IMG/VR virus record: IMGVR_UViG_3300005613_000167
Span: 1 to 39,869 of that record
Source: a virus
DNA: 39,869 nucleotides
Direction: 5' to 3' (one strand)
Shown here: one piece after another, positions 1,265 to 39,495 of the stretch
Layout: the number at the start of each line of letters is the position of its first letter
Numbering within the stretch: the first letter of the stretch is position 1
Program-made: the position numbers and the translations under genes
The notes under the pieces: model-generated
Databases searched by the model: none
What the model was told of the DNA's origin: nothing
What the model saw: only the letters and a program-made list of their open reading frames with translations

Positions 1265-1272
1265 AGCAACAC

Positions 1273-1899: not shown

Positions 1900-1950
1900 A
1901 ATTTGACCTTTAATCGACAGGTTATTAGGACTTGTTGATGTGTAAAACCA

Positions 1951-1974: not shown

Positions 1975-2006
1975 CATTTATACACAACTGTAGCACATTC
2001 GATCCG

Positions 2007-2246: not shown

Positions 2247-2247
2247 C

Positions 2248-4572: not shown

Positions 4573-4573
4573 G

Positions 4574-6397: not shown

Positions 6398-6417
6398 TGA
6401 AGCGGCTCCTAGTTTAA

Positions 6418-6756: not shown

Positions 6757-6765
6757 GTTGTTCCT

Positions 6766-6984: not shown

Positions 6985-6993
6985 GGTGGGGCC

Positions 6994-8700
6994 TTAAGTA
7001 AGACGGATGGCAAACATCTGCCAAAGAACTTCAGACCCGGCCACGCCGCTTGCGGTCAAAGACGGAGGAGTGCTGCCGCCCCATCCCTGTCCTCCCTGCC
7101 AGTTACGGAAGTAGAACGAGGCCCCAGCAGCCAGCGTCACAATGGTCGGATCTGGGTTATTTCCAGACGGCCACAAGTAATAATCATCTGGATTAGAAAT
7201 CTGAGAAATGCCCGCCACATTCCAGTCCGTGCGGCTGAACAGCACAATCAACTTGATGGTGGTACCGCCAGCGTTCCTAAGTCGGAAGTAGTTACTGCCG
7301 GAGTTTTGCTGGAAGCCGTCTTGTGAATAATCAATCCACGACAGCGTCCGCAGGGGCAGCAGATTGACCCGGAGTTCTACCTGAACCGTGCTGGAAGACA
7401 CCACATCCGGGGTAGCCGGGTTTTCTTCAGGATTCCACTTGGTGAGGTACGCCAGCAGGCTCGGATCCAACTTTGGTTCCGTAACGGCACCATCAATAAT
7501 TTTGCCCGTGCCTACCGCGTTTGCGGCAAGTTTTGAGTTTGTGACTGAGGTGTCAACAATCCGGTTTTCAGTTACCGAATTGAGGGCCAGTTGGAGTGTG
7601 CCGATGGTTCGCTCAGCAATTCGGTCAGCAGTCACCGCTTGTAGCGCGAGTTCTGCGGTTCCCACCACATTCTTTGTCGCCAGCGTCCCGAGACCCAGCG
7701 TGGTTCGGGCTTCGGTTGCGGAATTGTCGTCAAGCAGTTGCCGCGTGTAGTCGCTGTAAGTGATCAGGGTAGGGGTCTGCTTTCCAGAACCATCGTCCAC
7801 CCCCGTAGTCCCAATAAGTCGCCAGAGAGACTGTGAGGCAATGCGATTTAGACTGACGGCCCCGAGATCAATCTTAGCGTTGGTCACCGCAGAATTAGCC
7901 AACTTGGGCGTAGTGACCGCACCGTCCGCCAACTTAGCCGTGGTCACCGTACCGTCATCAATAATGGAGGTACTGGCAATCAGGTTCCGAGCAACGCCAA
8001 AGTTACGCACAGAGATTGCGCCAGTCTTGGCGGTATCAAAGATGATGCTGTTTGAGGTGATCGTGTAGGTGGCCGGATCTTGGATGGCCCCGCCAAACTC
8101 CACAATAAACATTTCCGAGGAAGTGTTCAGGGGGGCCGGATTAGTGAGCGGATAAGTGGTCACGCCCGTTCCGGTAATGTTCCACACTTGCGGCACCGTC
8201 ACCGTTCCGCCGAACAGGGTAGCCGTAGTGAACTGGGCCATGCTAACGGCATCGCTAGAGTCCAGACCATCGGCCATATTGCTCAGACGCTTGCTCTTAG
8301 CATCCCAGCGGGTGCGGTCGTCGGTCAGGTTAATCGTGTCCCCAGCGGCATCTTCGCTCTCCTGCGAGATATGCACCAGCCCTTCCACAGCCCGGTCCAG
8401 CGCAGCCGCAGTCAGCACAGATCCGTCATCAAAGTCAACAATCTGATCCTTGAAGTTGGCAATCGTATTGGGCGTTTCCCGGCGGAGCAGGATTACCGTG
8501 TTTGCTGCCGGGGGGACGACCGTGAACTCCACCTTGTTAACGCCGCTTTCGACAATCAGTTGGTACCCGGTCGTCTGCAAAACGCCGTCCAAATAGACCT
8601 TAATGAAGCCGTCATTTAGCCAGCCATCAATACCGGAAAGGCTGAACTTCGTGTCGGTGCCGTTGGCGGTGTAAGTAACGAAACTGGTGGGATTGCTCAT
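6994..8700 (-). CDS. Tail fibre protein (T7 gp17-like N-terminus)
   Basis: 568 residues. Residues 1 to 150 match the tail-attachment domain of T7 gp17-type fibres (SFVTYTANGTDTKF..., then FKDQIVDFDDGSVLTAAALD). Residues 245 to 290 and 345 to 412 contain many degenerate repeats of the type AVTxxKLAxxAV, which would form a trimeric shaft. The last 150 residues are beta-rich and probably form the receptor-binding head. The ATG follows AAGGAAAC. The fibre binds the host surface and is the main candidate for host range. Confidence 0.93.
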   Translation of the reverse strand: MSNPTSFVTYTANGTDTKFSLSGIDGWLNDGFIKVYLDGVLQTTGYQLIVESGVNKVEFTVVPPAANTVILLRRETPNTIANFKDQIVDFDDGSVLTAAALDRAVEGLVHISQESEDAAGDTINLTDDRTRWDAKSKRLSNMADGLDSSDAVSMAQFTTATLFGGTVTVPQVWNITGTGVTTYPLTNPAPLNTSSEMFIVEFGGAIQDPATYTITSNSIIFDTAKTGAISVRNFGVARNLIASTSIIDDGTVTTAKLADGAVTTPKLANSAVTNAKIDLGAVSLNRIASQSLWRLIGTTGVDDGSGKQTPTLITYSDYTRQLLDDNSATEARTTLGLGTLATKNVVGTAELALQAVTADRIAERTIGTLQLALNSVTENRIVDTSVTNSKLAANAVGTGKIIDGAVTEPKLDPSLLAYLTKWNPEENPATPDVVSSSTVQVELRVNLLPLRTLSWIDYSQDGFQQNSGSNYFRLRNAGGTTIKLIVLFSRTDWNVAGISQISNPDDYYLWPSGNNPDPTIVTLAAGASFYFRNWQGGQGWGGSTPPSLTASGVAGSEVLWQMFAIRLT

Positions 8701-8711
8701 GAAATGTTTCC

Positions 8712-13385: not shown

Positions 13386-13394
13386 GAGAAATCC

Positions 13395-15956: not shown

Positions 15957-15965
15957 TGAATTACC

Positions 15966-16652
15966 TTAGAAAGACCGCAGGAAGCGGACGGCATTCCATG
16001 AGGAGGGGTCAATCGGATTAAAGAAGTTGCTCTGACCGCTGGTGCCGGGATTAGCCGTGGGCCCAACTCCATTAGGAGTCTGGAACGAGTTCAAGGCCGT
16101 TGCCACGCTGATACCAGTTGCTGCGCCGTTCAGCAGGCTTGTAAACGGACTGACCGTTTGGCTGGGCGGGAGCGGGTTGGGGTAGCCGCTGTTAATTGCA
16201 GACTGGCCCCGAGCATAAATGGCCTGCGCCTCCATGTTGGCCTGCGTGGTTGCCGACCGGATATTCCGCGCCGCGACAGACTCATACTCGGCAACTTCCC
16301 GAGCAAACTGGGCATGGAGAAGATCGACGGAGCGTCCTTCGATTCCAGCACCAGCCTGCATTGCTGCGGCTGACCCGGAGGCTTCACGAACATTCCGGGC
16401 AATGCCCTGAAGTTCGTTCTGCGTTGCGGCCCGCTGCTCAAGGTTGCGCCGAGCCAGCATCTCCGTCTGCATCAACACATCTTGACGGACTGCCGCCGCA
16501 TTCTGCTCATACTGCTTATTTTGCGCGATCCCAAGACGGCGGTTATAGGAGTTTTGGGCGCGGGCCGCCTGATTCTGTGAGGCAATATTTGCCGCGCTAG
16601 AAGCGGCTGCAATGGCAGTAGATGCAACAATTGCTTCAATTATTCCGCACAT
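15966..16652 (-). CDS. Internal virion protein B (T7 gp14-like)
   Basis: 228 residues, with an N-terminal hydrophobic Ala-rich segment (IIEAIVASTAIAAASSAANI, from residue 4) and Gln/Asn/Ala-rich coiled-coil character (NQAARAQNSYNRRLG; RATTQAN type repeats). This is the standard build of T7 gp14, which inserts in the outer membrane during ejection. It starts 13 bp inside the previous gene. AAGGA precedes the ATG. Confidence 0.87.
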   Translation of the reverse strand: MCGIIEAIVASTAIAAASSAANIASQNQAARAQNSYNRRLGIAQNKQYEQNAAAVRQDVLMQTEMLARRNLEQRAATQNELQGIARNVREASGSAAAMQAGAGIEGRSVDLLHAQFAREVAEYESVAARNIRSATTQANMEAQAIYARGQSAINSGYPNPLPPSQTVSPFTSLLNGAATGISVATALNSFQTPNGVGPTANPGTSGQSNFFNPIDPSSWNAVRFLRSF

Positions 16653-17110
16653 GACTTAGTCCTTACAAACTCTACAAAGGGAAGTTTTAAATGCCCGTAT
16701 TCAGGGAGTACTCGTACAAATTTAAAGCCCAGCCACTTAAGCCAAGCAATGTGTACGGTATTGCGTCGATCCACAAGGTTCGTCAGAATAGGGGCTTTGC
16801 TTTGAAGGTAATCGACCCATTCCCGCGACTGCCTTAAGAAACTCCAGCGGTGCTTCAGCAACTCCGTCGAACCAAGCATCCAGACATAAGACACATTGTC
16901 TTGAGGTGCTGCGACATAGCCGAACATCGCTAAAGGCTTGCCTTCAGGGCAGACCACAGTAAAGCATTCTGTGGAATAAGTAAAGCCCTTAATCAAGGCT
17001 TTGTGCGGCGTGTCCTTTGACCCGGCGTAGACTTCGTCCCGGTCTTCCGGGCGCATAGTCTGGGCCAGCCAAGGAATGTCCTGACGAATGCTGGAGCGTA
17101 CTTTAATCAT
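16640..17110 (-). CDS. GNAT-fold internal virion protein A-like
   Basis: 156 residues with the pattern VSYVWMLGSTELLKHRWSFL and then NLVDRRNTVHIAWLKWLGF, which marks a family of acetyltransferase-fold (GNAT) proteins found in T7-like phages between tail tube B and the gp14 homologue. The family's catalytic role is unproven; it is often annotated as internal virion protein A. The start overlaps the tail tube B stop as ATGA. Confidence 0.82.
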   Translation of the reverse strand: MIKVRSSIRQDIPWLAQTMRPEDRDEVYAGSKDTPHKALIKGFTYSTECFTVVCPEGKPLAMFGYVAAPQDNVSYVWMLGSTELLKHRWSFLRQSREWVDYLQSKAPILTNLVDRRNTVHIAWLKWLGFKFVRVLPEYGHLKLPFVEFVRTKSCAE

Positions 17111-19893
17111 CCGAAGCGTTGTGCGCGGTCATCATACGATGCTTCAATGTCTCCGCTGAGAATCTTGCAGGGCATTGGAGAATCGTTAATGATTCGGATA
17201 ACCGTGTTTTCGTTTCTGGAGTAGATGGGACAACGGAAGGCTCCAGACGAGATGTTAGCGTTGTCCAGCAGCGAGGTCCCAAGAACTTCCCCGGTAAAGG
17301 GGTATTCGTAAGTATCCTCGTTACGAACCTGAGCCGTAACCCGGAAATACCCGGTATCGGCATATTGCAGCGTCAGGTACCGCAACTGGAGCCGCCCAGT
17401 CAGCAATGCGGCGTTGACCGTTCCAGCCCGAGAGGCCACGCCGCTGCGGAGATACGGGGTTGAGAACTCGTACTCCATGATGTAATTGGTGCCCACCCAA
17501 ACAGCGGTGTTGGAGTAGTCGCCAATGACATTGACCGTGCCCTGAGCCGCCGTGGCAATGTTGTATGAGGTGCCCCCGGCAAGCGAAAGAACAAGGCCAT
17601 TCACGGCCACCACCTTGGTCTTGCCCGCAGCATACGACATTGGCCTAGGCAGGGTAAAGGTGGTCAGCCCGGTGGTGCTGTTGTAGGTTCCGCTTCCCGC
17701 TGCAAGGTAGGCCCGCTGATCCAGATTGGTTACCCATGTCTGGTTGGTGGTGGCTACATCATTAATGCCGACCCCCATGCGGATCTTTTCAATCGTGATG
17801 AAGCCTGTGGTGCTGTTTCTGGTTCGCAGCATGACCACATACATATCAGACTCCACAAAGCCTGCCCACATTGGGCGGGCAAAGGCATAAGCCTCTGGAT
17901 TGGAATCCTGAAAGGTGAACCGGAACCATGCCGACTGTAGCCGCGTTCCGTTCTGATCGAAATAGCGGTAACAGTAGATTTCGTCCCCGGCAACCACGGC
18001 AGCCAGATTGTCGTGTGTGGACGCGGTGATGTGCCGGGGGGTGCTTGCAATGTACCGAGAGACATTGTTCGTGATGTCGTTTGCCAGATAGGACCCGTCC
18101 AGAGCGGGCTGGGGCACCAACTCACGAACTCCGGTAAACCCGCCATTGGCGAAGGTAAAGAACACGGAGGTGGCCGAAGGAATCGGGCGAACCGTTGCGG
18201 CTTGGCTGTCAAAGTCGGCCACGGAAATAATGGCAATCTGCTTGGGGCTGAGGATCTGGCCCCCGCGAAGAACCATCTGATTCGTGGGCGTAAACAGAAT
18301 CAAGTCCCGGTTAAACGGAACGGCAGCCACAATCTTTCCTACCCGGGGGCTGGACGAAGCGACATCAATGGGGTCTGAGTCCAGCAAATCCAGCGTGGTG
18401 GTTCGGAAGAAGTTGAAGAACTCCGACACCTCGCTGAAGATGATGTTTTCCCCCGCCATGATCCCCAGCCTGTTCTGGTAGAAGACCATGTCTTGCAGCC
18501 GCTCCCCGACAAAGGTGGGGAAGGGGTTCGTCAAGTCGTCACCAACCAGCCGATCAAACCACTTGAGACCGCTGTAGGAGGCCCCAACGGCGGCTCCCGT
18601 TCCATTCAGGCCATCCCCCTTCTTCAGGTAGAAGGTGCCGTCAGATTGTCGAATGATCAGCAACGGCATGGTGGCGTAGTCAAACTTGTACTTCAGGCCG
18701 GGTGCCACGGTCTCTTCCCAGATCCCCCGGGAGAAAGTGCCGTTGTCGGCCTTAAACTTCACCCAGTAGTCGTCGTAAGGAGATTCGGGAGTCCCGACCA
18801 CCTTGACCATGTAGCCGTGGGGCGCACTAGGCGGCAAGTCTTCAAATCGCTGGACGGTGTCCTTGATGTAGGCCATACCGTCCCCACCAAAGTCGTCTTC
18901 GACGACCACGGTGAAGTCTGCGCTGCCCTTGATGTAAATGACGCTGTCCTCGTACTCGCTTGCCGTGTAGGGGCTGGTGGCCTTGATACCGCCGGGAGGC
19001 CCAATGTAGCCACTAGCAGCGTTTTCCCACAGAGCCCGGGCCACTCGGTCTGTACCGATTTCGCCCTGCACGGAGGACTGAATCGTGACCTGAAAGTTGT
19101 TCGCTCCGCCAATATCACCCGAGTTGGCTGAAAGAACCGTGTTGACTTGCTCCGACTCCCAGCCAATAGCGTCTTCGACAATGACAATTTTAGTCACCTT
19201 GCCGCCGGAGCCCACAGTAATTTGAGCCTTGGGGTAGGTCGTCGCTTTGACTCCTGAAACATAAGTCAAAAGGACATTGCTGTAAGTGTTGGGAGTTCCG
19301 CTGCTTCCCTCGTTGGTGATCTGAACCGAGCGGCTAATGTGGGTAAAGACCGTGGTCGTTCCCCCGCTGGTCAGTTTGATGATGTGTTCGCGGTTGTAGT
19401 TACTCTGCTTAATCCACACCAGTCCAGCACGGTTGTAATCGGAAGGAATTCCAGTCACCGTGTCCGCGGCTGCGGCAATTGGGTTGGTAGCGTTGGAAAT
19501 AAAGGTCACATCGCCAATCGTCAAAGCCTTGCGCTTGCCCGAAGTGGCCGACCCCAGCGACACCCCCGAGTCCACCAGAAGCGTCTTTCGGTTTCCCGCC
19601 AAGTCGTAGATATCGGCGGTGCCACTTTCCTGAACAACGAGTAGATACTTTTCAGTTTCGTCCCGCTCAATCAGGTGAACAAACAAAGATTCCGTCTTGT
19701 TGATGTTCCTGAGCGTTCCCCCGCTGTCCGCTACCACAGCAATCCGCTCAGTTGGCGGTCGCTTCAGCAGTCCCTCAATAGGCGAAGGCACAGCATTGTC
19801 CACCTTTTCAGCCTCGTTGGCCTGCCGGATGGACGGGGGCTGCTGGTTAACGCCGCCGATGAGGTTGGGGATGGGGGAGGTGATCAGGGGCAT
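17107..19893 (-). CDS. Tail tubular protein B (T7 gp12-like nozzle)
   Basis: 928 residues from the ATG at 19893, which shares a base with the tail tube A stop (TAATG). A start 42 bp upstream is possible but lies inside that gene. The N-terminus, MPLITSPIPNLIGGVNQQ followed by IEGLLKRPP, is the signature of gp12-type nozzle proteins. The rest is a beta-propeller-like, Thr/Gly/Ser-rich protein. It forms the tail nozzle below tail tube A and carries the fibres with it. Confidence 0.95.
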   Translation of the reverse strand: MPLITSPIPNLIGGVNQQPPSIRQANEAEKVDNAVPSPIEGLLKRPPTERIAVVADSGGTLRNINKTESLFVHLIERDETEKYLLVVQESGTADIYDLAGNRKTLLVDSGVSLGSATSGKRKALTIGDVTFISNATNPIAAAADTVTGIPSDYNRAGLVWIKQSNYNREHIIKLTSGGTTTVFTHISRSVQITNEGSSGTPNTYSNVLLTYVSGVKATTYPKAQITVGSGGKVTKIVIVEDAIGWESEQVNTVLSANSGDIGGANNFQVTIQSSVQGEIGTDRVARALWENAASGYIGPPGGIKATSPYTASEYEDSVIYIKGSADFTVVVEDDFGGDGMAYIKDTVQRFEDLPPSAPHGYMVKVVGTPESPYDDYWVKFKADNGTFSRGIWEETVAPGLKYKFDYATMPLLIIRQSDGTFYLKKGDGLNGTGAAVGASYSGLKWFDRLVGDDLTNPFPTFVGERLQDMVFYQNRLGIMAGENIIFSEVSEFFNFFRTTTLDLLDSDPIDVASSSPRVGKIVAAVPFNRDLILFTPTNQMVLRGGQILSPKQIAIISVADFDSQAATVRPIPSATSVFFTFANGGFTGVRELVPQPALDGSYLANDITNNVSRYIASTPRHITASTHDNLAAVVAGDEIYCYRYFDQNGTRLQSAWFRFTFQDSNPEAYAFARPMWAGFVESDMYVVMLRTRNSTTGFITIEKIRMGVGINDVATTNQTWVTNLDQRAYLAAGSGTYNSTTGLTTFTLPRPMSYAAGKTKVVAVNGLVLSLAGGTSYNIATAAQGTVNVIGDYSNTAVWVGTNYIMEYEFSTPYLRSGVASRAGTVNAALLTGRLQLRYLTLQYADTGYFRVTAQVRNEDTYEYPFTGEVLGTSLLDNANISSGAFRCPIYSRNENTVIRIINDSPMPCKILSGDIEASYDDRAQRFG

Positions 19894-20489
19894 TAATTGA
19901 CTCGGTAAGACCCACGACGAATGAAGGTGCGCCACACATCGGAGTTATCGAAAATGGTGAAATCACCGATCTCGTTCTCGTACTCATTCATCATAGCGAG
20001 TGCGGCGACTTCATCCCGGAGCGTGAACCCGTGGTGCTTCTCGGAGCCGACCATGCGATCTTGAAAGATCCGGGCAGCCCGGACGGTGATGTACCGCTTG
20101 GCCGTTTCGGGCATCTCGTCAAAGTCCATCAGGTAAACCTGAATCACCTTGATGGGACCGGGAAAGACATATGAATTGGTCTTCCGGTTGTACAGGCGGT
20201 TTCCCCGGACAACCACATCGTACTCGTACTCCATGCGGTCCATGTCAACACGAACAATCTTGTCGCTGAGGTAGATGAACCCCGTGTTGCTGTCTGGGGT
20301 CAGCGTCAGATTTTCGTCGGTGTTGAAGTGCCAGCCGTAGGTCAGAACCTCCCGGGAAACCTCGTCAAGGATGTTCTGGGCAATCAGCGAGTCCGCCCGC
20401 TGGGCCGATAGGGAGTTAACCGGGGGCTCCCCAACGGCAGACAGCATGGTGTTTACCGCTTGGATTCTGGTGGTCTTTGTCAACGACAT
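19893..20489 (-). CDS. Tail tubular protein A (T7 gp11-like adaptor)
   Basis: 198 residues, matching gp11 size. MSLTKTTRIQAVNTMLSAVGEPPVN and the SREVLTYGWHFNTDE block are typical of the gp11/gp4-type adaptor ring between portal and nozzle. The first gene after the capsid-distal terminator (20503..20547). Confidence 0.95.
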   Translation of the reverse strand: MSLTKTTRIQAVNTMLSAVGEPPVNSLSAQRADSLIAQNILDEVSREVLTYGWHFNTDENLTLTPDSNTGFIYLSDKIVRVDMDRMEYEYDVVVRGNRLYNRKTNSYVFPGPIKVIQVYLMDFDEMPETAKRYITVRAARIFQDRMVGSEKHHGFTLRDEVAALAMMNEYENEIGDFTIFDNSDVWRTFIRRGSYRVN

Positions 20490-20502
20490 AGGGAAACCTC
20501 AA

Positions 20503-20547
20503 ACAAAAGAGGGGGTGGAACCCAACTAAGGGAACCACCCCCTCTTT
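20503..20547 (-). terminator. Strong terminator after the capsid gene (T7 Tphi position)
   Basis: A long stem: AAAGAGGGGGTGG pairs with CCACCCCCTCTTT across an inner CCC...GGG pair, with A-A internal mismatches, and a U-rich tract follows on the minus strand. It stands directly after the major capsid stop, the place of the T7 late terminator, and would set a high capsid to tail transcript ratio. The symmetry means it could work in both directions. Confidence 0.85.
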
Positions 20548-20569
20548 AACTCAGGGGTGAGAGAACGGA

Positions 20570-21673
20570 TCAGCCCGTGCCGACCAGTTCGTAGCAGCAC
20601 TCCTCGCGGAGGACATTGTGACCCATGGCGTACTTAGCCAGCATCAGGGTGCCAAGCCGCTCCATGATGTACTCCGACTCAAGCGAGAGATCCATCAACT
20701 TGACCGTGGCAATGCCTTCACGCTGGAAGACGATGCCGCGGGTCGTGCTGAAGTTGGCCTGACCGTAGCCCACGCCGCCCGCACCGAAGACATCGTTCTT
20801 CACGCCGCCATCGCTGTGGATGTTGGCCGAGGTCTCATTGGTGGTCGGGATGTGGTTGCTCTTCACGATCTGGATGCCAGCCACCCGCATGATCATGCCG
20901 CCAGCCACCGAGCCGTTGCCCTCATTGCCGTAATCACGGTTGATGGCCTCCTGATTCTCGTTGACCAACTTGTAGTACTGCGCCGGGGGAAGAACGCAGA
21001 AGCGATCCTCAGCAGGCACATTGGCCTCGTCCATCTTCTGAGCAGCGACGAACAGGCCGTCGATCAACTTCTCGCCCGTGGTGGTGGATCCGACCGGGAT
21101 CTGGGCACCAAGGAAGGTTGCATCAGAGCCACCGAAACGGTCAGTCGCGGTGCGGGCACCAGCGATAGCCGTGCGGATCAGGTTCTTGTCGGCGGTGTAA
21201 GCCAGAGCCCGACCGATTTCGGTGCTGTAGATCGAACGCACATCGTAGTGGTTCTTCATCTCGTCCAGATCGGCCACGAAGACCGAGGACACCAGCACAT
21301 CGTCGATGAAGACGACCTTCTCAGCGTGCTTGAAACGGTTCAGGTACTTGGAATCAGCCGAGTTGCCCGAGTCAAACGAGGTGGTCGGAGAACCAGCCGA
21401 AGTGCCTGCGGCAAACAGGTTGGTGCCCGAAGCCTCGCTCAGGACGGACTCGCCCGGAGTGTGGTACTTGGCATCAGCCACGCCCGTGACGGGGAACTGA
21501 GCAGACTTGCCGCTCTGGATCGTCCGCACACGGTGGAGCGGCATCATCACATTGTACTTCTCAAAGGTGGTGATGATTTCGCCGGAGAAAACCTTGAGGA
21601 AGAGGGCATCGACATCCCCCGCCAGATTGACCTGACCAAGACGGGACGGGCCCGTGTAGTTGTAACTAGCCAT
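20570..21673 (-). CDS. Major capsid protein (T7 gp10-like)
   Basis: 367 residues of the T7 HK97-fold capsid family: MASYNYTGPSRLGQVNLAGD at the start, the LFLKVFSGEIITTFEKYNVM helix, and the ENQEAINRDYGN segment. It follows the scaffold and lysis cassette, and is flanked by a hairpin upstream (21797..21826) and a strong terminator downstream (20503..20547). AGGA lies before the ATG. No frameshift product like T7 10B is evident. Confidence 0.96.
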   Translation of the reverse strand: MASYNYTGPSRLGQVNLAGDVDALFLKVFSGEIITTFEKYNVMMPLHRVRTIQSGKSAQFPVTGVADAKYHTPGESVLSEASGTNLFAAGTSAGSPTTSFDSGNSADSKYLNRFKHAEKVVFIDDVLVSSVFVADLDEMKNHYDVRSIYSTEIGRALAYTADKNLIRTAIAGARTATDRFGGSDATFLGAQIPVGSTTTGEKLIDGLFVAAQKMDEANVPAEDRFCVLPPAQYYKLVNENQEAINRDYGNEGNGSVAGGMIMRVAGIQIVKSNHIPTTNETSANIHSDGGVKNDVFGAGGVGYGQANFSTTRGIVFQREGIATVKLMDLSLESEYIMERLGTLMLAKYAMGHNVLREECCYELVGTG

Positions 21674-21796
21674 TTCGTTTTAATTCCTAATTGGGTGTGT
21701 TGTAAGATGCATTTATGTCTTTTTCTTACGGTTATCCCTCGCAAGGGGCCAGCAATACTGGAGACACCTCCCGGCCATCTCTACCGGGAAAGTAAA

Positions 21797-21826
21797 GGAA
21801 CCCCACAGATTTCTCTGGGGGGTTCC
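21797..21826 (-). terminator. Hairpin in the 184-bp gap before the capsid gene
   Basis: GGAACCCC (21797..21804) pairs with GGGGTTCC (21819..21826), extended by an AGA/TCT pair. Only TTT follows on the minus strand, so it may be a weak terminator or an RNase-type processing hairpin ahead of the capsid mRNA. The remaining gap (21674..21796) holds no gene and no promoter I could define. Confidence 0.55.
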
Positions 21827-21857
21827 GAGGGCCTACGCGAATCAGGTGAGACTGGGC

Positions 21858-22094
21858 TCACGGCGCAGCCGGAGGTTCTTCTGGAACATCAGCGGCCCAC
21901 CAACCAGCCGGAATCTCAACTCTGTTTGCAGACTTGATCTTTGTGCCGTCTTGTTGAACGACAAATACATGGGCCTTTACGGGTTCAGCCAGTTGGACTG
22001 GAGTCCCCGGGGGTACGAGAAGCACGGTGGTTCCGCACCCGGTCATGAAACCGAGAACGGACACCGCCAGCAGTCGGATCGGCTGTTTTGGCAT
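21858..22094 (-). CDS. Small lipoprotein, o-spanin-like candidate
   Basis: 78 residues from the ATG at 22094, which has AAGGA 5 nt upstream. A signal peptide (PIRLLAVSVLGFMTGC) ends in a lipobox-like FMTGC, so Cys19 should be lipidated and the protein anchored in the outer or inner membrane. The mature part is short, with Pro-rich ends (PPGTPVQLAEP; PEEPPAAP). It overlaps the preceding small gene in another frame, as Rz1-type outer spanins do with Rz. The partner lacks a clear Rz form, so the spanin role is tentative. Confidence 0.65.
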   Translation of the reverse strand: MPKQPIRLLAVSVLGFMTGCGTTVLLVPPGTPVQLAEPVKAHVFVVQQDGTKIKSANRVEIPAGWWAADVPEEPPAAP

Positions 22095-22167
22095 TCGTAT
22101 CCTTAGATACCAATCCTTCAAGAAACTTGAGGATTGCGGTGACAATTTCACCGACCCACCCCCACAT
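21985..22167 (-). CDS. Small amphipathic protein overlapping the lipoprotein gene
   Basis: 60 residues from the ATG at 22167, which overlaps the stop of the holin-like gene (ATGA) and follows GGAGAAGAAG. The N-terminus (WGWVGEIVTAILKFLEGLVS) is a strongly amphipathic or membrane-surface helix; the C-terminus is polar and basic. About 110 bp overlap the lipoprotein gene in a different frame. It could be an inner spanin partner, an accessory holin, or only its first 24 residues may matter. Confidence 0.5.
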   Translation of the reverse strand: MWGWVGEIVTAILKFLEGLVSKDTNAKTADPTAGGVRSRFHDRVRNHRASRTPGDSSPTG

Positions 22168-22361
22168 CACTTCTTCTCCGAAGCGTCCTTAGCCATGATC
22201 AGGCCGATGCCTGCGGTGATGGCGGCAATGGTCGTGCCCATGTCAAAGGTGGTAGCCGCATCGCCATCAAGGATTGCCACAAGGGCCGTGCCAGCGGCGG
22301 TAAGAATGGTGGCAATACCCAGAACGGTGGTCTTCACATTGTGAGGCAACTTGTTAATCAC
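22167..22361 (-). CDS. Holin-like small membrane protein with two membrane segments
   Basis: 64 residues with two predicted membrane helices, about 12 to 30 (TVLGIATILTAAGTALVAIL) and 41 to 56 (MGTTIAAITAGIGLIMA), and a charged C-terminus (KDASEKK). Class II holin size and layout. The start is GTG with GGAG before it, overlapping the scaffold stop. It is an unusual lysis position, between scaffold and capsid. Confidence 0.65.
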   Translation of the reverse strand: MINKLPHNVKTTVLGIATILTAAGTALVAILDGDAATTFDMGTTIAAITAGIGLIMAKDASEKK

Positions 22362-23089
22362 GATGAAACTCCAAGGGCGTTAGAGAGAGCAACGCGCTGT
22401 TCCACATCCTTGCGGTATGCGGGATCCTTGGCGTAACGGGGATCCTTCATGGCGGCCACGATTTCAGCCACGCTACGGTACGCACCGCCGCTAGGCCCAG
22501 CCACCTCGCCCTGAATCAGGCGGCCCTGTGAACCGTTTTCCTTCTGGTAACGCGCCTTTAGCCCTTCAACGGCCATCCGAACGGCGTGGGGATTCCGGCC
22601 ATCGATGATGTTGTTGAAGGCATCAATCTCGGCTTCAGGCAGGGCTCCCGCAGCCCACTCAATCATGCCCTGATAAGCCTCCGGCCCGCCAGCCATCTGC
22701 ATAACAGCGTTGGTCTCGGCATCCAACATGGAACGCTGGCCTTCAATGTAGGAGCGCACCATGGTCTCGGGCAGACCGTAGGTATTCACGATCTCCTTGA
22801 CCGATTCCTCGCTGATGTCGCCGTTGGCGTAGAACTCCTGCGAGTACTTCTCAAGGCCAGCAAAGTCGGCCTTGTTCTCTGGATTGCTGATCCGCTTTTC
22901 CAGTTCGCTGTACGCCTTAGCCAGTTCAGTCGGATCCTTGAACTTTTCCGGGAGCCATTCAGGACGCTCCACGATGGGCTGGGGCTCTTCCGGCGGAGGC
23001 GCACCTTCCAATGCCTGCTTCATGGCATCGACTTCGCCATTGGACTCTGCGGTATCTCGGACGATGGTGACTTGCTGGTGGTTACTCAT
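22358..23089 (-). CDS. Scaffolding protein (T7 gp9-like)
   Basis: 243 residues, charged and helical, with an acidic Pro/Glu-rich N-terminal third (GAPPPEEPQPIVERPEWLPEKF) as usual for gp9-type scaffolds. It lies between portal and capsid. It directs prohead assembly and leaves before packaging. The start overlaps the portal stop (ATGA), so the two are translationally coupled. Confidence 0.88.
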   Translation of the reverse strand: MSNHQQVTIVRDTAESNGEVDAMKQALEGAPPPEEPQPIVERPEWLPEKFKDPTELAKAYSELEKRISNPENKADFAGLEKYSQEFYANGDISEESVKEIVNTYGLPETMVRSYIEGQRSMLDAETNAVMQMAGGPEAYQGMIEWAAGALPEAEIDAFNNIIDGRNPHAVRMAVEGLKARYQKENGSQGRLIQGEVAGPSGGAYRSVAEIVAAMKDPRYAKDPAYRKDVEQRVALSNALGVSS

Positions 23090-24615
23090 TGCTGTTGATT
23101 CATCTGCTCAATCATTGTTCCCGTGGTCTTGGCGGCTTGGGGTCCAGCCATAGCAAGCATCTGCTGCTGCATTGCCATCTGCTGTTCCTGAGCAATCTGC
23201 TCTTCCGTCTTCACAAGACCAGCCGTGTCAATCCCGAGCGCGGCTGCACGGCGATTCAGGTATTCCCGGAAATCAATATACTGCTGAATGCCGCCGGGGC
23301 CGAGAATTTGAGCAATTCCTTGGAGATAAATATCCAAACGATTCAGGTCGTTGCCCCGGCCCAGAGCGTCGATTCCGGTGACGATGGTGGGGGTGACATA
23401 CCGCTTATCGATCTTCGGCATCTTCTTGGCCTTGGTCAGGCGGTCGATGATGCGGTTAACCAGCGGCAACTGGAATTCCTGCGACAAAAGGCTGTAGATC
23501 CCGCCCAGTTGGCGTTCGATGGACTGGGTCACCAGCCGGATCTCTTCAGCCGTCACACGCTCCGCGTTGCGGATGGAGGCTTCAGTCAGCAGGAAAGCGT
23601 AAGAAAGCCGCTCGTTGATCGTGTTGATCGTCTGAAGGGCCACGCCCATGTCGGCGGCCTTGGCGACCTGTAGAACCGTCACATCTTGGGCGTTGCCCTC
23701 AATAATGGCTCCATTTGGGCTCTGGGCGATCTTCCGGGCCCGGGTGCTTCCCGTGGGGTTGACCAAGAACAAGACCTTGGCAGAAGCCGCAGCACCTTCG
23801 ACAATGCTCTTGGAGAGGCTGTCCAGCGAGACCAGATCCCCGTAGTACTGCTCCACATAAGAGCGACCGTAGTCTTCCCCGTCAACCCGATGCATCCGCA
23901 GGGCTAGGAAGGGGCTGCGCTCTGCGGGGTAGGTTGCGTAGGAATCGGGAATGATGTTGCCACCAATCTCTTGGTAGACCTCTACCTTGTTGTCGGGGAG
24001 GGTGTGGCAACAGGTGTACAGTTCGACCGTGTCTTCGTGAGCGCACAGACAGTCCTTAGCCATGGATGCCACCTCTGGCGGCAACATGGCCGGAGAGACA
24101 TTCTCCTTGATGACGATCTTGCGGACATTGCCCATCGGGTCGCGCTTCACGACATAACGGTCCAGCCGCAGCACCCGCATGGGCCCCTCGTCGGGGAAGT
24201 ACAGAAGCACATTTCCGCAAACAATGAGTTGCTTTAGAGCCTCAAACAGGGCGACCCGGATGCTCTGGGCTTCGATCTCCTTCATCACCGTCCGTTCCAT
24301 GTCGGACAGGCTCTGCTCCGCCTCGCTGCGGGCCCGGGGGGACATCGAATCTAGGTTGCGGGCTGCCGCAGGATCGATGATGAACCGGAAGAAGGGGGCG
24401 TTCGGGGGCAGAAGGGACAACAGCAGGGCCGACGACAGGTTATTAACGCCTCGCGCTCCTACCGCCTGCCAAGGTGCAGGGAACTTCTCAGCGGTACGGT
24501 CGCCCTCGTCAGTCAGGAGGTGCGGCAGGGTCAGTCTGGCGCAATCCCGGGCCCGTTCAAGGAACGAGAACCGCCGGGTTTCCAGCCGCAGATACAGGGC
24601 CTTACCGCTTTCCAT
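23086..24615 (-). CDS. Portal (head-tail connector, T7 gp8-like)
   Basis: 509 residues, close to T7 gp8. Recognisable parts are LRLETRRFSFLERARDCARLTLP at the N-terminus, DEGDRTAEKFPAPWQAVGARG, and the long SFAFLLTEASIRNAERVTAEEI type helix around residue 345. The C-terminus is Gln/Met-rich (EQQMAMQQQMLAM), also common. It forms the dodecameric ring for DNA passage. Confidence 0.96.
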   Translation of the reverse strand: MESGKALYLRLETRRFSFLERARDCARLTLPHLLTDEGDRTAEKFPAPWQAVGARGVNNLSSALLLSLLPPNAPFFRFIIDPAAARNLDSMSPRARSEAEQSLSDMERTVMKEIEAQSIRVALFEALKQLIVCGNVLLYFPDEGPMRVLRLDRYVVKRDPMGNVRKIVIKENVSPAMLPPEVASMAKDCLCAHEDTVELYTCCHTLPDNKVEVYQEIGGNIIPDSYATYPAERSPFLALRMHRVDGEDYGRSYVEQYYGDLVSLDSLSKSIVEGAAASAKVLFLVNPTGSTRARKIAQSPNGAIIEGNAQDVTVLQVAKAADMGVALQTINTINERLSYAFLLTEASIRNAERVTAEEIRLVTQSIERQLGGIYSLLSQEFQLPLVNRIIDRLTKAKKMPKIDKRYVTPTIVTGIDALGRGNDLNRLDIYLQGIAQILGPGGIQQYIDFREYLNRRAAALGIDTAGLVKTEEQIAQEQQMAMQQQMLAMAGPQAAKTTGTMIEQMNQQQ

Positions 24616-28383: not shown

Positions 28384-28399
28384 TTCTAGAGTTCTAGAG
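28384..28399. repeat. TTCTAGA inverted repeat before DNA polymerase
   Basis: TTCTAGAGTTCTAGAG on the plus strand: one arm base differs from the consensus (final G for A). It overlaps the stop codon of the helix-turn-helix gene and ends 12 nt before the polymerase ATG. It is the most distal gene-linked copy of the family. Confidence 0.8.
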
Positions 28400-28732
28400 C
28401 AAGTCGCTCAGAGTTAGGTTGCGACTGGCAAAGTAACGGCGCATCTTAGCAAGCGAGTTCTCAAATATGCGCTTGGCGCGTTCTCCCGTGATCTGATCTT
28501 CGGGGTTTCTGGCGTTGTACTGCCGAGCAATGTTCTCCCATGTGTTGGCCTCGTCTGTCGGCATCTTACCACGAAATCGGGGCGGGCGCGGCTCGTAGCC
28601 AAACCGGGCAATAGACGAAACGCTCTGCGGGCTAATGCCGTACCGTCTGGCAATCTCCACCTTCTTGATGGATGTCTTTGCCAAAGCCTGAACTTCTTTG
28701 ACCTGTTCGTCTGTAAGTTTTCTCTTACGCAT
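28394..28732 (-). CDS. Helix-turn-helix DNA-binding protein
   Basis: 112 residues, basic. Residues about 8 to 38 (VKEVQALAKTSIKKVEIARR then YGISPQSVSSI) form a classical helix-turn-helix of the resolvase/Trp-repressor-like type. The rest is Arg-rich and helical (RAKRIFENSLAKMRRYF). It could be a regulator that acts on phage operators; the TTCTAGA repeat that overlaps its own stop codon is one candidate target. HNH-linked HTH families are an alternative origin, but no HNH motif is present. Confidence 0.7.
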   Translation of the reverse strand: MRKRKLTDEQVKEVQALAKTSIKKVEIARRYGISPQSVSSIARFGYEPRPPRFRGKMPTDEANTWENIARQYNARNPEDQITGERAKRIFENSLAKMRRYFASRNLTLSDLL

Positions 28733-32422: not shown

Positions 32423-32438
32423 TTCTAGAGTTCTAGAA
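32423..32438. repeat. TTCTAGA inverted repeat before SSB
   Basis: Perfect TTCTAGAGTTCTAGAA (plus strand). It abuts the RNA polymerase stop codon at 32439 and ends 15 nt before the SSB start codon. Confidence 0.9.
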
Positions 32439-34832
32439 TCAGTTGAAGTAGTAGTCTGATTCACGAACCTTGGTGATGTCCAGAGAACCGTACTCTGGAA
32501 CTTCAGGTATGGTACCAGAACTTCCCAGATAGGTCAAGGCCCCCTCACGGAACTCCCTGAGAAGATCCCGCGAGAAGATGTCAACCGTGGCCTCACGGAC
32601 GCAGGAAGACACCTTCATGTAGTCTCCAGACAGGCACAGGATCTGGTCGTGGACGGAGCCAAGATGGTTCACCCCGTTGGCCGCACACATATTCACGGTG
32701 TGTCCCAACAGCCCACCAAAGCCGTCTAGCGAGTGAATGTAGTTGGCTGGGCCCCCGTTCATAGCCTTGCGCTTGGACTGAACACCGTTCTCTTGTCGAA
32801 TCGACAGCACCTTGGCCTTGGCCCCGATGCGGGTAGACACGGTGACTAGGTCGTAATTCTCGTACCGCATTCGCACCGGGAAACCCAGAGGAGTCATCCA
32901 CATCGGCGTGACATCGTTGTCAATCAGGGTGGAAACGCATTGACGAATAAACGCCATACCACGCTGGGCTGACCCGACGACATCACCGATTGATTCCCAG
33001 ATCGTCTTGCCCAACAGGGCGACTGGCGCATACATCTCCAGACCAAACGGATTGTGGCCGTGCTTGCGGATGCGGTCTTCAAGCCACTCCCGGGTATAGC
33101 CAATACAAGAGTGCAGGGTCAGACCGTAAGGCAGCGTCATGGTTTGCCGCTTGGTCGTGCTGCGATCAACGCCCAAAGCCAACAACTGCTTGGCTAGGGG
33201 ATCAGACGAACTGGCTAGTTTGTTGGTCACCTTGTTGGCAACAAACTGGTACGGATCAGAGGGGGCAGCAGCGGGTAGGACATTTGTCGCCGTGGCTGCC
33301 ACCGGATCTCGCAGCAACATGGAATAAATCTGAAGACCCTGAGTAGTGGCATCCATGGCAATCGGCAGGCTGCTGACAAACCCAGATCCATGCTTCCACA
33401 GTCCAGCCAGTTCACGACACGCGGCCACAAAAGCAAAAGGCTCGTCCGCCTCCGTCCACATCCGATTCGACCACGGGTCAACAGCAATCTGCTGAATTGC
33501 CTTCCTGTTTTCCTCAACCCACTTCAACCGCACAGCCATCGGCTGCTTGTCCATTCCAAACTTGTTGGCAACTTGGATGTACAGCGGGAACTGGTCCGCA
33601 TCAGTCTTCAGAACTTTGCCGTCTGCGAACCGCAGCAAAGCCTTTGCATACGACGAACCCTGCGGATTCAAGAACAACGGCAGCGGGTATCCCCGGCCAC
33701 GGAAATCCAACTGATGGGGGAACCACAGCCTGCTGTGCCCAGCCATCTTGTCGGCCACAAACAGGGTCTTCAGGATCAGCAGACGCTGCGACTCAAAGGA
33801 CTCATTTAAGAAATGAATCTTTGCGGCAGCCTTGCGCCAACTGCGGCGGGCTTCGTCGTTGTCGTCGATATCTTGAGGCTTGGTTGGAAGAGGCTCGTCT
33901 TTGCTTGGAGGAAGACCATCGATGGTCAGGCCCTCTTTCCAACACTCTTTGACCAACTCCAGCGACTGGCGGTCAATCGACCACGGCGTATTCTGGACAA
34001 AGTTAACGGCCTTGTAGACCGCCGGGGGTAGAGAGGTGGCTAGCGACTCCTGATACGCCTTGGATCGGCTCTTGACCAACGGACGAGGCTTCCACTCAAG
34101 AGAGCCATAGCCGCCAACCCAAGGATTGTTCCACTCCAGCGGCTTCTCCACCATGGGGAGGAACATCGGCTCAAGAGATTCGTGGTATTCGTGACATTCT
34201 TTGATCCACTTGCGAATATCCGCAGATGGCTGAATCACGCAATATTTGCGGCCCCGGGCATTCAACTTGGTGACGATCTGAATGATCTGGGTGCGCTCGG
34301 CCAGCATTTCTACCAGCAGCAACCCAACAGCAAGAGCGTCAGCCTTGGCCCACCGCTTAGTGACAAGATCAACGGCCTTGGCGGCATCACGGGCAAATCG
34401 ACGCTTGACCTTCTGCCCCACCTTCTTGAATGTCTTCTTCTGAATCGTGCGAAGAAACTCGGGCTGAGTGTCCGCCAACTCGTTCAAAAGAATTTCATCT
34501 TCGACTGCACGGCCCACAGCGATGCAAGTTCCAGTCAACATTCGTTCGGTTGACAGGGCATCGATGACCACCTTGGCCGCGATGACAGCGATTTTTTCGT
34601 GTGATAGTGAATTGACAAACGCGAGGCACCGATGACGACGACCGGGACCAGACGAGGACTTTGCAATCCAAAGTTCCAGCCCCTTGGCAAGTTCGGTCGT
34701 GCAGCGATTGAGCAGCATCCGACCGGGAACGGTGTTGCTTTCCGCTCCCAGTTCGTGGGCCTTGGCCTTTCGGTTGGCGTACCGCTGCCTCCCGAGTTCC
34801 ACCATCTCCTGATCTAGTTTGCTTTGTCGCAT
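32439..34832 (-). CDS. Single-subunit DNA-dependent RNA polymerase (T7 gp1-like)
   Basis: 797 residues (T7 has 883). Landmarks: DFRGRGYPLP (376 to 385) matches T7 DWRGRVY; catalytic D494 in PIAMDATTQGLQ; K561 R562 and Y569 G570 in TTKRQTMTLPYG (T7 K631 and Y639); IHSLDG (699 to 704); and H728 D729 in SVHDQI (T7 H811 D812). The C-terminus DYYFN resembles the essential FAFA foot. It transcribes the middle and late genes. The first ATG follows the inverted repeat with no Shine-Dalgarno; AGGAG lies just before residue Met10, so the true start is uncertain. Confidence 0.96.
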   Translation of the reverse strand: MRQSKLDQEMVELGRQRYANRKAKAHELGAESNTVPGRMLLNRCTTELAKGLELWIAKSSSGPGRRHRCLAFVNSLSHEKIAVIAAKVVIDALSTERMLTGTCIAVGRAVEDEILLNELADTQPEFLRTIQKKTFKKVGQKVKRRFARDAAKAVDLVTKRWAKADALAVGLLLVEMLAERTQIIQIVTKLNARGRKYCVIQPSADIRKWIKECHEYHESLEPMFLPMVEKPLEWNNPWVGGYGSLEWKPRPLVKSRSKAYQESLATSLPPAVYKAVNFVQNTPWSIDRQSLELVKECWKEGLTIDGLPPSKDEPLPTKPQDIDDNDEARRSWRKAAAKIHFLNESFESQRLLILKTLFVADKMAGHSRLWFPHQLDFRGRGYPLPLFLNPQGSSYAKALLRFADGKVLKTDADQFPLYIQVANKFGMDKQPMAVRLKWVEENRKAIQQIAVDPWSNRMWTEADEPFAFVAACRELAGLWKHGSGFVSSLPIAMDATTQGLQIYSMLLRDPVAATATNVLPAAAPSDPYQFVANKVTNKLASSSDPLAKQLLALGVDRSTTKRQTMTLPYGLTLHSCIGYTREWLEDRIRKHGHNPFGLEMYAPVALLGKTIWESIGDVVGSAQRGMAFIRQCVSTLIDNDVTPMWMTPLGFPVRMRYENYDLVTVSTRIGAKAKVLSIRQENGVQSKRKAMNGGPANYIHSLDGFGGLLGHTVNMCAANGVNHLGSVHDQILCLSGDYMKVSSCVREATVDIFSRDLLREFREGALTYLGSSGTIPEVPEYGSLDITKVRESDYYFN
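32509..32537 (-). promoter_or_regulatory. Possible sigma70-like promoter inside the end of the RNA polymerase gene
   Basis: TTGACC (532..537), 17 nt, then TACCAT (509..514), with the TTCTGG just before the -10 that the early promoters also carry. It is within coding sequence, so selection for protein could explain it, but it would drive SSB and the replication genes. Confidence 0.35.
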
Positions 34833-34833
34833 T

Positions 34834-34849
34834 TTCTAGAACTCTAGAA
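34834..34849. repeat. TTCTAGA inverted repeat abutting the RNA polymerase start, opposite orientation
   Basis: On the plus strand this copy reads TTCTAGAACTCTAGAA, so its centre is AC where all the other gene-linked copies have GT. Only 1 nt separates it from the RNA polymerase ATG, leaving no room for a Shine-Dalgarno sequence. A TATCAT (34853..34858, minus) just upstream could place a transcription start in or near the repeat. Confidence 0.85.
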
Positions 34850-34879
34850 TGAATGATACGGCACCAAACCGTAGGAAAT

Positions 34880-34913
34880 AAAAAACCCCCTGTATCCATT
34901 TGGATACAAGGGG
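34880..34913 (-). terminator. Early-block terminator just upstream of the RNA polymerase gene
   Basis: On the minus strand CCCCTTGTATCC pairs with GGATACAGGGG (4-nt loop, one bulged base) and six T follow. It closes the early block, 45 bp after the stop at 34958 and about 47 nt before the RNA polymerase ATG. The rest of the gap 34850..34957 has no gene. Confidence 0.88.
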
Positions 34914-34957
34914 CGAGAGAGGAGAACGCCGGGGAGAACTCGGCGTTGTCCACTATA

Positions 34958-35689: not shown

Positions 35690-35705
35690 TTCTAGAGTTC
35701 TAGAA
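35690..35705. repeat. TTCTAGA inverted repeat before the DUF932-like gene
   Basis: Perfect TTCTAGAGTTCTAGAA. It abuts the stop codon at 35706 and ends 12 nt before the ATG at 35677. Confidence 0.9.
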
Positions 35706-35909
35706 TTACTGAGCCCTACGCTTGGGCTTGGCCTTGAGGCACGAATCAATGAACAGGGTTTCGGCTTCCGTAAGCCACGACTTGTGACGATCTACGCGCC
35801 ACAGTACCAATGACGCAAAGTTAAAGGCGTTTTCGTGATCGCCAGACAGGTGGTACTGGTATGTCTGGTCGATGCCGTTAGAGATGAGGAAACGATCCGC
35901 TTTCTCCAT
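35706..35909 (-). CDS. Hypothetical early protein, possibly leaderless
   Basis: 67 residues, MEKADRFLISNGIDQTYQYH, ending in a basic KAKPKRRAQ. No family recognised. The -10 box of the nearest promoter (35916..35921) places transcription start about at the A of this ATG, so the mRNA would have no leader. No internal Met offers an alternative start. It is the only early gene with no inverted repeat in front. Confidence 0.65.
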   Translation of the reverse strand: MEKADRFLISNGIDQTYQYHLSGDHENAFNFASLVLWRVDRHKSWLTEAETLFIDSCLKAKPKRRAQ

Positions 35910-35915: not shown

Positions 35916-35943
35916 ATGTTACCAGAGATTACGAATCTGTCAA
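35916..35943 (-). promoter_or_regulatory. Early sigma70 promoter 4, extended -10
   Basis: TTGACA (35938..35943), 16-nt spacer ending TCTCTGG, then TAACAT (35916..35921). The TGG before the -10 gives an extended -10. It overlaps the end of the upstream coding sequence (stop at 35929) and would serve the genes at 35909 and 35677. Confidence 0.8.
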
Positions 35944-36180
35944 TGGGGACACCTCAATGTGGCCTGCGCGAGACATCTGCTCGTCAGTCCACACGGACAG
36001 TTGGTAGACCTTGCCTTCCGGCGTGGCGAACATCAAGCAAGTCAGGTATTCGCCCGCGTTGTCGTTGTCTTCTGCGATGCCAATGCCGATGACTTGGGCA
36101 CCACGAAGCATACGAACGCTGTTAAACGCCCTAGTTGCGCCGGGAGGTGTTTGCTCGTTAGGAAGTTCTCCAACCCACAT
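35929..36180 (-). CDS. Hypothetical early protein
   Basis: 83 residues, MWVGELPNEQTPPGATRAFN..., with beta-rich centre (GEYLTCLMFATPEGKVYQLS). No domain recognised. GGAG with an inverted repeat 10 nt upstream of the ATG. Its last codons encode part of promoter 4. Confidence 0.65.
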   Translation of the reverse strand: MWVGELPNEQTPPGATRAFNSVRMLRGAQVIGIGIAEDNDNAGEYLTCLMFATPEGKVYQLSVWTDEQMSRAGHIEVSPLTDS

Positions 36181-36190: not shown

Positions 36191-36206
36191 TTCTAGAGTT
36201 CTAGAA
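36191..36206. repeat. TTCTAGA inverted repeat before the gene at 36180
   Basis: Perfect TTCTAGAGTTCTAGAA, 10 nt upstream of the ATG. It is separated from the previous stop (36266) by about 60 bp, unlike the copies that touch a stop codon. Confidence 0.9.
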
Positions 36207-36758: not shown

Positions 36759-36774
36759 TTCTAGAGTTCTAGAA
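36759..36774. repeat. TTCTAGA inverted repeat before the acidic protein gene
   Basis: Perfect TTCTAGAGTTCTAGAA, 13 nt before the ATG at 36745 and downstream of promoter 3, so within the mRNA leader. Confidence 0.9.
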
Positions 36775-36816: not shown

Positions 36817-36844
36817 ATCCTACCACAGAATTCGATTGTGTCAA
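36817..36844 (-). promoter_or_regulatory. Early sigma70 promoter 3, extended -10
   Basis: TTGACA (36839..36844), 16-nt spacer ending TCTGTGG, TAGGAT (36817..36822). It lies just after the stop at 36850 and drives the acidic-protein gene; the inverted repeat at 36759..36774 lies in its transcript. Confidence 0.8.
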
Positions 36845-37324: not shown

Positions 37325-37340
37325 TTCTAGAGTTCTAGAA
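37325..37340. repeat. TTCTAGA inverted repeat, extended leader copy 1
   Basis: Perfect TTCTAGAGTTCTAGAA. It abuts the GP88 stop codon (37341) and is followed on the minus strand by the shared leader AGAAAGAGAGAATGCC, 16 nt, and the ATG at 37308. Confidence 0.9.
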
Positions 37341-38148: not shown

Positions 38149-38164
38149 TTCTAGAGTTCTAGAA
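38149..38164. repeat. TTCTAGA inverted repeat, extended leader copy 2
   Basis: Perfect TTCTAGAGTTCTAGAA, 16 nt before the GP88 ATG and downstream of promoter 2, so within its leader. Confidence 0.9.
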
Positions 38165-38202: not shown

Positions 38203-38230
38203 ATGTTACCAGAGAAACAGAACTTGTCAA
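38203..38230 (-). promoter_or_regulatory. Early sigma70 promoter 2, extended -10
   Basis: TTGACA (38225..38230), 16-nt spacer ending TCTCTGG, TAACAT (38203..38208). The TGA stop of the upstream gene (38227..38229) is inside the -35 box. It drives the GP88 gene. Confidence 0.82.
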
Positions 38231-38666: not shown

Positions 38667-38682
38667 TTCTAGAGTTCTAGAA
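38667..38682. repeat. TTCTAGA inverted repeat, extended leader copy 3
   Basis: Perfect TTCTAGAGTTCTAGAA. It abuts the stop codon at 38683 and is followed by the AGAAAGAGAGAATGCC leader shared with copies at 37325 and (one base different) 38149. Confidence 0.9.
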
Positions 38683-38971: not shown

Positions 38972-38987
38972 ATCTAGAGTTCTAGAA
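38972..38987. repeat. TTCTAGA inverted repeat, one mismatch, before the first early gene
   Basis: ATCTAGAGTTCTAGAA on the plus strand (first base differs from consensus). It lies 13 nt before the ATG at 38958 and downstream of promoter 1. Confidence 0.85.
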
Positions 38988-39029: not shown

Positions 39030-39057
39030 AGGTTACCACAGATTCCGTTCTTGTCAA
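39030..39057 (-). promoter_or_regulatory. Early sigma70 promoter 1, extended -10
   Basis: TTGACA (39052..39057), 16-nt spacer ending TCTGTGG, TAACCT (39030..39035). The first promoter of the early block, 72 nt before the ATG at 38958. Confidence 0.8.
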
Positions 39058-39217: not shown

Positions 39218-39233
39218 ATCTAGAGTTCTAGAA
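39218..39233. repeat. TTCTAGA inverted repeat in the non-coding control region, one mismatch
   Basis: ATCTAGAGTTCTAGAA on the plus strand, between the AT-rich block and the 31-bp repeats; no gene begins near it. Confidence 0.85.
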
Positions 39234-39243: not shown

Positions 39244-39282
39244 CGACTAGCGTCCCAGCGGGATAGTGAATGTGATAGTGAA
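39244..39282 (-). repeat. 31-bp direct repeat, copy 2, with a doubled TTCACTAT core
   Basis: 39244..39274 matches 39359..39389 at 28 of 31 positions. On the minus strand it contains TTCACTATCCCGCTGGGACG, and a second TTCACTATCAC at 39272..39282. The core resembles CTCACTATAGGG of the T7 promoter, so these are candidate phage RNA polymerase promoters. Confidence 0.6.
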
Positions 39283-39358
39283 GTCTGGTTTGGTAGGTCT
39301 TTTGAAGGTGATGATCGGGGATGAAGTCTGGATTCTGTTCTAGACTCAACGACATGGA

Positions 39359-39389
39359 CGACCAGCGTCCCAGCGTGATAGTGAATATG
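39359..39389 (-). repeat. 31-bp direct repeat, copy 1
   Basis: On the minus strand TTCACTATCACGCTGGGACG. It is 85 bp from copy 2, in the same orientation. Promoter-like, as described for copy 2. Confidence 0.6.
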
Positions 39390-39442
39390 GCCGGTTTTGG
39401 GTGGGGTTTTGGATGGGTCTGGCGGTCCCGGGCGAATGTCGG

Positions 39443-39460
39443 CGTGTCCGGGATAGTGAA
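39443..39460 (-). repeat. Partial TTCACTATCCCG repeat
   Basis: The minus strand reads TTCACTATCCCGGACACG, sharing the core with the 31-bp repeats but not their outer part. Confidence 0.5.
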
Positions 39461-39479: not shown

Positions 39480-39495
39480 TTCTAGAGTTCTAGAA
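39480..39495. repeat. TTCTAGA inverted repeat beside the terminator
   Basis: Perfect TTCTAGAGTTCTAGAA between the control region and the terminator at 39525..39560; a TATGCATAACGC word like the left-end iterons follows at 39502. Confidence 0.9.

Follow-up and report, generated by a model that had tools for sequence, protein, structure and literature searches.

Background

Phages of the T7 type are usually treated as running a simple timed cascade, and we know of no repressor in T7 itself, whose RNase III sites lie between the early genes and around the RNA polymerase (RNAP) gene. Among T7-like phages the nearest idea to the control described below is the MarR control of RNAP proposed for LUZ100, in which the RNAP gene lies behind a terminator and sites for a MarR-like repressor are proposed to flank the RNAP promoter (PMC10134795). 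Further afield, the Cluster A mycobacteriophages (L5, Bxb1) carry many short phage-specific sites, mostly off promoters, and the sites and the repressor co-diverge (PMC6550527). In Cluster K, repeats named SAS and ESAS stand directly before many start codons (PMC3203893), and the inverted-repeat consensus of ESAS differs between subclusters (PMC12699233).

The window analysed here, meaning the whole 39,869-nt stretch of IMG/VR record IMGVR_UViG_3300005613_000167, encodes a PHROG-matched RNAP, a gp2.5 SSB, a primase/helicase, a DNA polymerase, a head-tail adaptor and a terminase, and thus belongs with the T7-like (Autographiviridae-type) phages. Its RNAP is about 35%, and at most 36%, identical to those of named phages, and no close named phage was found by window DNA or by the small protein p67 introduced below. 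A profile scan of viral contigs supplied around 35 relatives with RNAPs 63-98% identical. In this clade motif A of the RNAP reads DATTQG and motif C HDQ, where aligned named phages mostly have DGSCxG and HDS, a change common to the relatives whose motif could be read.

The RNA polymerase gene start

The features at the start of the RNAP gene are as follows.

32439..34832, minus strand: RNAP gene, T7-type single-subunit, 797 aa, start ATG at 34832; PHROG 414 (E=1e-207), Pfam RNA_pol; N-terminus conserved
34834..34849, unstranded: putative operator of the RNAP gene (gene strand TTCTAG-AGTT-CTAGAA), over the predicted transcription start and 1 nt from the ATG; relatives alike
34853..34858, minus strand: predicted -10 box TATCAT of the RNAP promoter, 5/6 match, 3 nt before the operator
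34879..34914, minus strand: intrinsic terminator, 13-bp stem (34914..34885) and T-run, at the boundary of early genes and RNAP gene; present in every relative examined

Read on the gene (minus) strand, the order is the terminator GCCCCTTGTATCC-AAAT-GGATACAGGGGGT with its T-run, then ATTTCCTACGGTTTGGTGCCG, TATCAT, TCA, TTCTAGAGTTCTAGAA (34849..34834), a single A and the ATG at 34832. A preliminary description of this DNA had placed a repeat 1 nt from the RNAP ATG, a strong terminator some 47 nt upstream and no Shine-Dalgarno (SD) sequence, and all three points hold. About 47 nt separate the end of the T-run from the ATG, the predicted folding energy of the hairpin is -23.5 kcal/mol (z = -6.5), and nothing more SD-like than a GAG, spaced 9 nt from the ATG, precedes the gene. 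Within the repeat, two codons 5' of the ATG, there is a TAG in frame with the gene. In the sister contig L005 (RNAP 98% identical) this layout is the same in every detail.

The RNAP copy of the repeat had also been described as flipped, with AC at its centre where other gene-linked copies have GT. The difference is real, since, among the 12 copies whose centre is asymmetric, AGTT on the gene strand is peculiar to the RNAP copy and the other 11 have AACT there, but AC and GT are merely the centre of a hyphenated palindrome, TTCTAG-N4-CTAGAA. The flip in the window carries little meaning, because both centre orientations occur within single genomes of relatives. That the flip aids translation through AGAG in the window or AGGA in L043 at the predicted 5' end is kept as no more than a minor idea, since L044 and L050 have no such sequence.

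In every relative read, a strong terminator is followed by 20-50 nt and then by the RNAP ATG, and nearly all of those examined have a -10-like box before the ATG. The suggestion that TATCAT is a transcription signal is borne out, as probably a -10 box: relatives have TATAAT, TATACT, TATGAT or TATGCT in the same place, and a box matching in at least 5/6 positions is found in 9/15 genomes as compared to 3.7 expected from shuffles. Two arrangements occur. The box lies 2-3 nt before the palindrome in eight genomes (the window, L043, L044, L045, L050, L051, L061 and L151; just a 4/6 match in L045 and L050), and in nine others (L052-L056, L059, L062, L067 and L167) the ATG follows 6-7 nt after a box that matches at 4/6 to 6/6 positions, the spacing expected for a leaderless mRNA.

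An SD of 4 nt or more is absent at RNAP in 12/16 genomes while SSB (18/19), DUF932 (14/16) and DNA polymerase (13/14) nearly always have one, which argues that the missing SD at RNAP is a family trait and that Met1 is the likely start. Met1 is favoured over Met10 because the N-terminus is conserved, MRQ(S/D)KLD from residue 1 being kept through synonymous changes, and because the ATG falls 6-7 nt past the -10 box in the nine relatives named above.

Phage-specific palindromes

The dyad element has 13 copies in the window, ten of them just before gene starts. A search allowing up to 3 mismatches returned 15 matches (10 exact) as compared to 0.77 expected. Besides the copy at the RNAP gene, the putative operators, all unstranded, are these.

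35690..35705: between the p67 stop codon and the DUF932 gene
36191..36206: before an 83 aa gene (35929..36180)
36759..36774: 5' leader of a 159 aa gene, downstream of a sigma70-like promoter at 36844..36817
37325..37340: between the Gp88-family gene and a 152 aa gene, in the order stop, operator, SD, ATG
38149..38164: 5' leader of the Gp88-family gene, downstream of a promoter at 38230..38203
38667..38682: between a 91 aa and a 142 aa gene
38972..38987: 1 mismatch, leader of the 91 aa gene, downstream of a promoter-like sequence at 39057..39030
32423..32438: directly 3' of the RNAP gene, before the SSB gene; position conserved in relatives
28384..28399: 1 mismatch, ahead of the DNA polymerase gene and partly within the end of a 112 aa helix-turn-helix (HTH) gene; position conserved in relatives
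39218..39233: 1 mismatch, noncoding leader region left of the early genes
39480..39495: noncoding leader region, after a terminator
550..565: fully symmetric TTCTAGAATTCTAGAA, noncoding DNA near the window end

When viral contigs were searched for exact matches to the 16-mer, 33 stretches came up, and multiple copies of the exact element occurred only in L005. The noncoding leader also holds, at 39259..39460 on the minus strand and inside an imperfect repeat, four copies of a second motif, TTCACTATC, a possible phage promoter or origin; its recurrence before late genes was looked for and not found. In the gaps of the structural genes (1..24615, minus strand) no obvious repeated promoter motif was seen.

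Each relative has a palindrome of its own. The classes include GTCTAG-GAA-CTAGAC, GTCTAG-ACT-CTAGAC, GTCTAG-TCG-CTAGAC and GTCTAG-GATC-CTAGAC, and single genomes carry, for instance, GTCTAA-GAC-TTAGAC (L054), TTATAG-AGT-CTATAA (L053) or ATCCCA-AATT-TGGGAT (L062); in L056 spacers are mixed within one genome. Among early genes the sites lie in the gap that separates a stop codon from the next SD; others lie at RNAP, in the RNAP-SSB gap and before DNA polymerase. Over 128 sites, outer-base mismatches are of the A-C type in 11 cases and of the G-U type in 5, and that A-C is not the rarer argues against RNA pairing. The whole element precedes the -10 box of the RNAP promoter in L055 and L056, and is absent for that reason from the predicted RNAP mRNA. 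Taken together, the centres found both ways, the mismatch table and the position in L055 and L056 argue that the element behaves as a DNA operator, and the earlier suggestion of an operator is supported to that extent.

One pair of relatives is especially informative. L053 and L054 differ in all their operators, although their RNAPs are 99% and their SSBs 99.5% identical and across the terminator their DNA is the same. Since phages with 99% identical RNAPs thus have unrelated operators, the polymerase cannot be the binder. The feedback control of polymerase that had been suggested probably does not run through the polymerase itself; the partner that co-varies with the operators is a separate small protein, p67.

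A small protein that follows operator class

Two further features are needed here.

35706..35909, minus strand: p67, 67 aa, leading candidate regulator for operator binding; in relatives it co-varies with operator class
35916..35943, minus strand: predicted p67 promoter, TTGACA-16-TAACAT with TGG before the -10 box, ending 6 nt before the ATG (leaderless) and containing no operator

The p67 mRNA is predicted to be leaderless in most relatives; in L061 and L151 the p67 gene overlaps the preceding gene. Between L053 and L054 p67 is 33% identical, an outlier among the early-region orthologs compared; beyond the early region, at the left end of L053, a 70 aa gene likewise scores low (39%).

In a permutation test with RNAP identity as control, p67 identity follows operator class (effect 0.455, p = 0.0005, with L046 kept in beside its near relative L045), and with two genomes added (17 genomes) and DUF932 or RNAP as control p = 0.0002. 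Across the tests the effect is 0.39-0.46 and p = 0.0002-0.0005, with relatedness controlled in each test only by the identity of a single gene, RNAP or DUF932, and with operator classes assigned by eye from operator tables. None of the other families tested in this way, the HTH protein included, tracked operator class significantly at 0.05. All genomes with ACT-type operators have p67 of one subclade, and two contigs that were not used to form this rule, L158 and L167, have both the ACT-associated p67 and ACT-type operators, as expected. In L059 and L060 neither a p67 homolog at the corresponding position nor a palindrome of this kind was detected. With RNAP at 66%, the same terminator and a leaderless RNAP promoter (TATACT), these two offer a natural comparison without the operator system.

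Counting against p67 as the binder, L061 and L151 have p67 proteins that are 94% identical, yet operator spacers of 4 and 3 bp; all four changes between the two proteins lie in residues 12-20, helix 1. The predicted fold of p67 has three helices (pLDDT 79). No PDB structure matched it at E below 0.001, there being a weak TPR-like resemblance, and its sequence gave nothing informative against Pfam, PHROG and PDB, with no Pfam match; as modelled, p67 is without a recognisable DNA-binding fold.

Proposed control circuit and its alternatives

We consider it fairly likely that host RNAP drives the polymerase gene from a promoter of its own behind the terminator, and that p67 binds the operators and shuts down both the early genes and the polymerase promoter. 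The 16-bp element would thus be a dyad-symmetric DNA operator for a phage regulator, most likely p67, whose binding, repression and timing we infer from sequence. p67 would be made at once by host RNAP from its strong, leaderless and operator-free promoter (35943..35916). The polymerase gene, which the terminator would seal off from the early genes, would be transcribed by host RNAP from its own weak promoter with the -10 box TATCAT, giving an mRNA with a leader of roughly 12-15 nt and no proper SD (in many relatives no leader at all) that would be translated from Met1. Once enough p67 had accumulated to fill the 13 or so operators, the early genes and the polymerase promoter would be silenced. 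At RNAP the bound regulator would block initiation, because the operator covers the start site; in the intergenic gaps it might act as a roadblock, of which the gene-gap operators alone are no proof.

There are several other ways to read these repeats. The operator might serve another phage protein, for instance the 112 aa HTH protein (28394..28732). Of the proteins scanned this one has the clearest claim to bind DNA (Pfam HTH_7); it occurs in 22 related loci, and its gene adjoins an operator copy and ends in it. We think this role unlikely and have set the HTH protein aside as the binder, since operator class is not reflected in its divergence (effect -0.03 to 0.01, p 0.4-0.7); it is moreover present in L059 and L060, where the element was not found. 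L053 and L054 are no test of this protein, as the L054 record stops before its gene. The HTH protein is in itself clade-wide and fast-evolving, with its operator copy at the gene end, before the DNA polymerase gene. A somewhat smaller chance attaches to the element forming, at the start of every mRNA, an RNA hairpin that acts in stability, processing or translational control like the RNase III sites of T7. Most early genes do have the element in their leader, immediately ahead of the SD, and its arms can pair, but the hairpin is short (about -4.3 kcal/mol), its outer pairs show no preference for G-U over A-C, its centres flip freely among copies in relatives, and in L055 and L056 it lies upstream of the predicted RNAP start and so outside that mRNA. 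Least credible of all is that the element is a promoter of the phage's own RNAP, with the flipped copy at the RNAP gene firing the other way. The copies at 28384 and 38972 have an AACTC core followed by GGGAGA and so superficially look like T7 promoters. The element is, however, palindromic and used in both orientations, no good copy of it precedes the structural genes, and we reject this reading because the 99% identical polymerases of L053 and L054 have unrelated elements.

The remaining alternative concerns the polymerase gene rather than the repeats, and we rate it about as improbable as the RNA hairpin: RNAP might be expressed by read-through from the early genes alone, with translation from Met1 or Met10 and the promoter-like box a matter of chance. 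The RNAP promoter of the window indeed matches poorly at -35, and in the related phage LUZ100 read-through of the terminator has been proposed to start RNAP expression (PMC10134795). Plain read-through from the early block, which the preliminary description had set against its own reading, is nonetheless unlikely because so strong a terminator is kept in every relative examined; against it also stand the consistent positions of the -10 boxes and an RNAP N-terminus conserved from Met1.

Implications

If the proposed circuit of p67 and its operators is correct, the whole clade seems to carry a repressor-like control on the polymerase gene and most early genes, in which a 67 aa protein with no annotated function co-varies with phage-specific operators. 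Such control might limit the polymerase, end early expression or exclude related phages. The joint variation of p67 and an element particular to each phage suggests a rapidly diversifying repressor-and-operator control, and the replacement of all operators between the near-identical L053 and L054 shows that many dispersed sites can change together. For inverted repeats at gene starts such as ESAS, which have no known binder, the circuit also provides a model that can be tested.

Searches of 20 related records (some incomplete) for a tyrosine integrase or serine recombinase gave no match, and a scan of 84,980 species genomes gave one relative, a 13-kb contig in a MAG; these results are consistent with a lytic phage and are no proof of it. 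L167 (JAIXOQ010000009.1; RNAP 78% identical), in a MAG labelled Proteobacteria, could be a mis-binned free phage contig. We speculate, and hold it to be a doubtful idea, that this is a strictly lytic T7-like group with an immunity-type system: p67 would repress the polymerase and early genes at its roughly 13 operators, protein and operator would switch in step, and a phage that entered a cell first would thereby exclude relatives sharing its operator class. If true, this would represent superinfection immunity without lysogeny, diversified by frequency-dependent selection, and p67 would be a previously undescribed small-protein family.

Comparison with described systems

Like the stoperators of Cluster A, the elements described here are many and phage-specific, and their sequence diverges together with that of a phage protein, p67 in this case. 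In the temperate Cluster A phages an HTH repressor binds asymmetric 13-bp sites that mostly face one way, as compared to the 15-16 bp dyads with a centre in either orientation found here, with a 67 aa candidate binder outside known DNA-binding families and no integrase found. The likeness to SAS and ESAS of Cluster K lies in repeats placed right before gene starts with a consensus that varies by group. SAS is a conserved asymmetric 13-mer, GGGATAGGAGCCC, and ESAS has arms of 17 bp, and for both function and binder are unknown; the SAS 13-mer with 17-bp inverted repeats was not found in the window, where the recurrent intergenic motif is TTCTAGAACTCTAGAA, and here a co-varying gene has been identified. 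T7 RNase III sites are similarly placed between early genes and around the RNAP gene, but the present element is much shorter, differs in sequence from phage to phage and behaves like DNA. With the MarR-controlled temperate T7-like phages (LUZ100, Pasto, HTVC019P) our locus shares the terminator before RNAP. At its predicted start site lies an operator-like dyad that may serve as a repressor site. Those phages have an integrase and a MarR-like gene, whereas no integrase was found here and p67 matches no MarR family, and in the phages described here the sites also precede most early genes.
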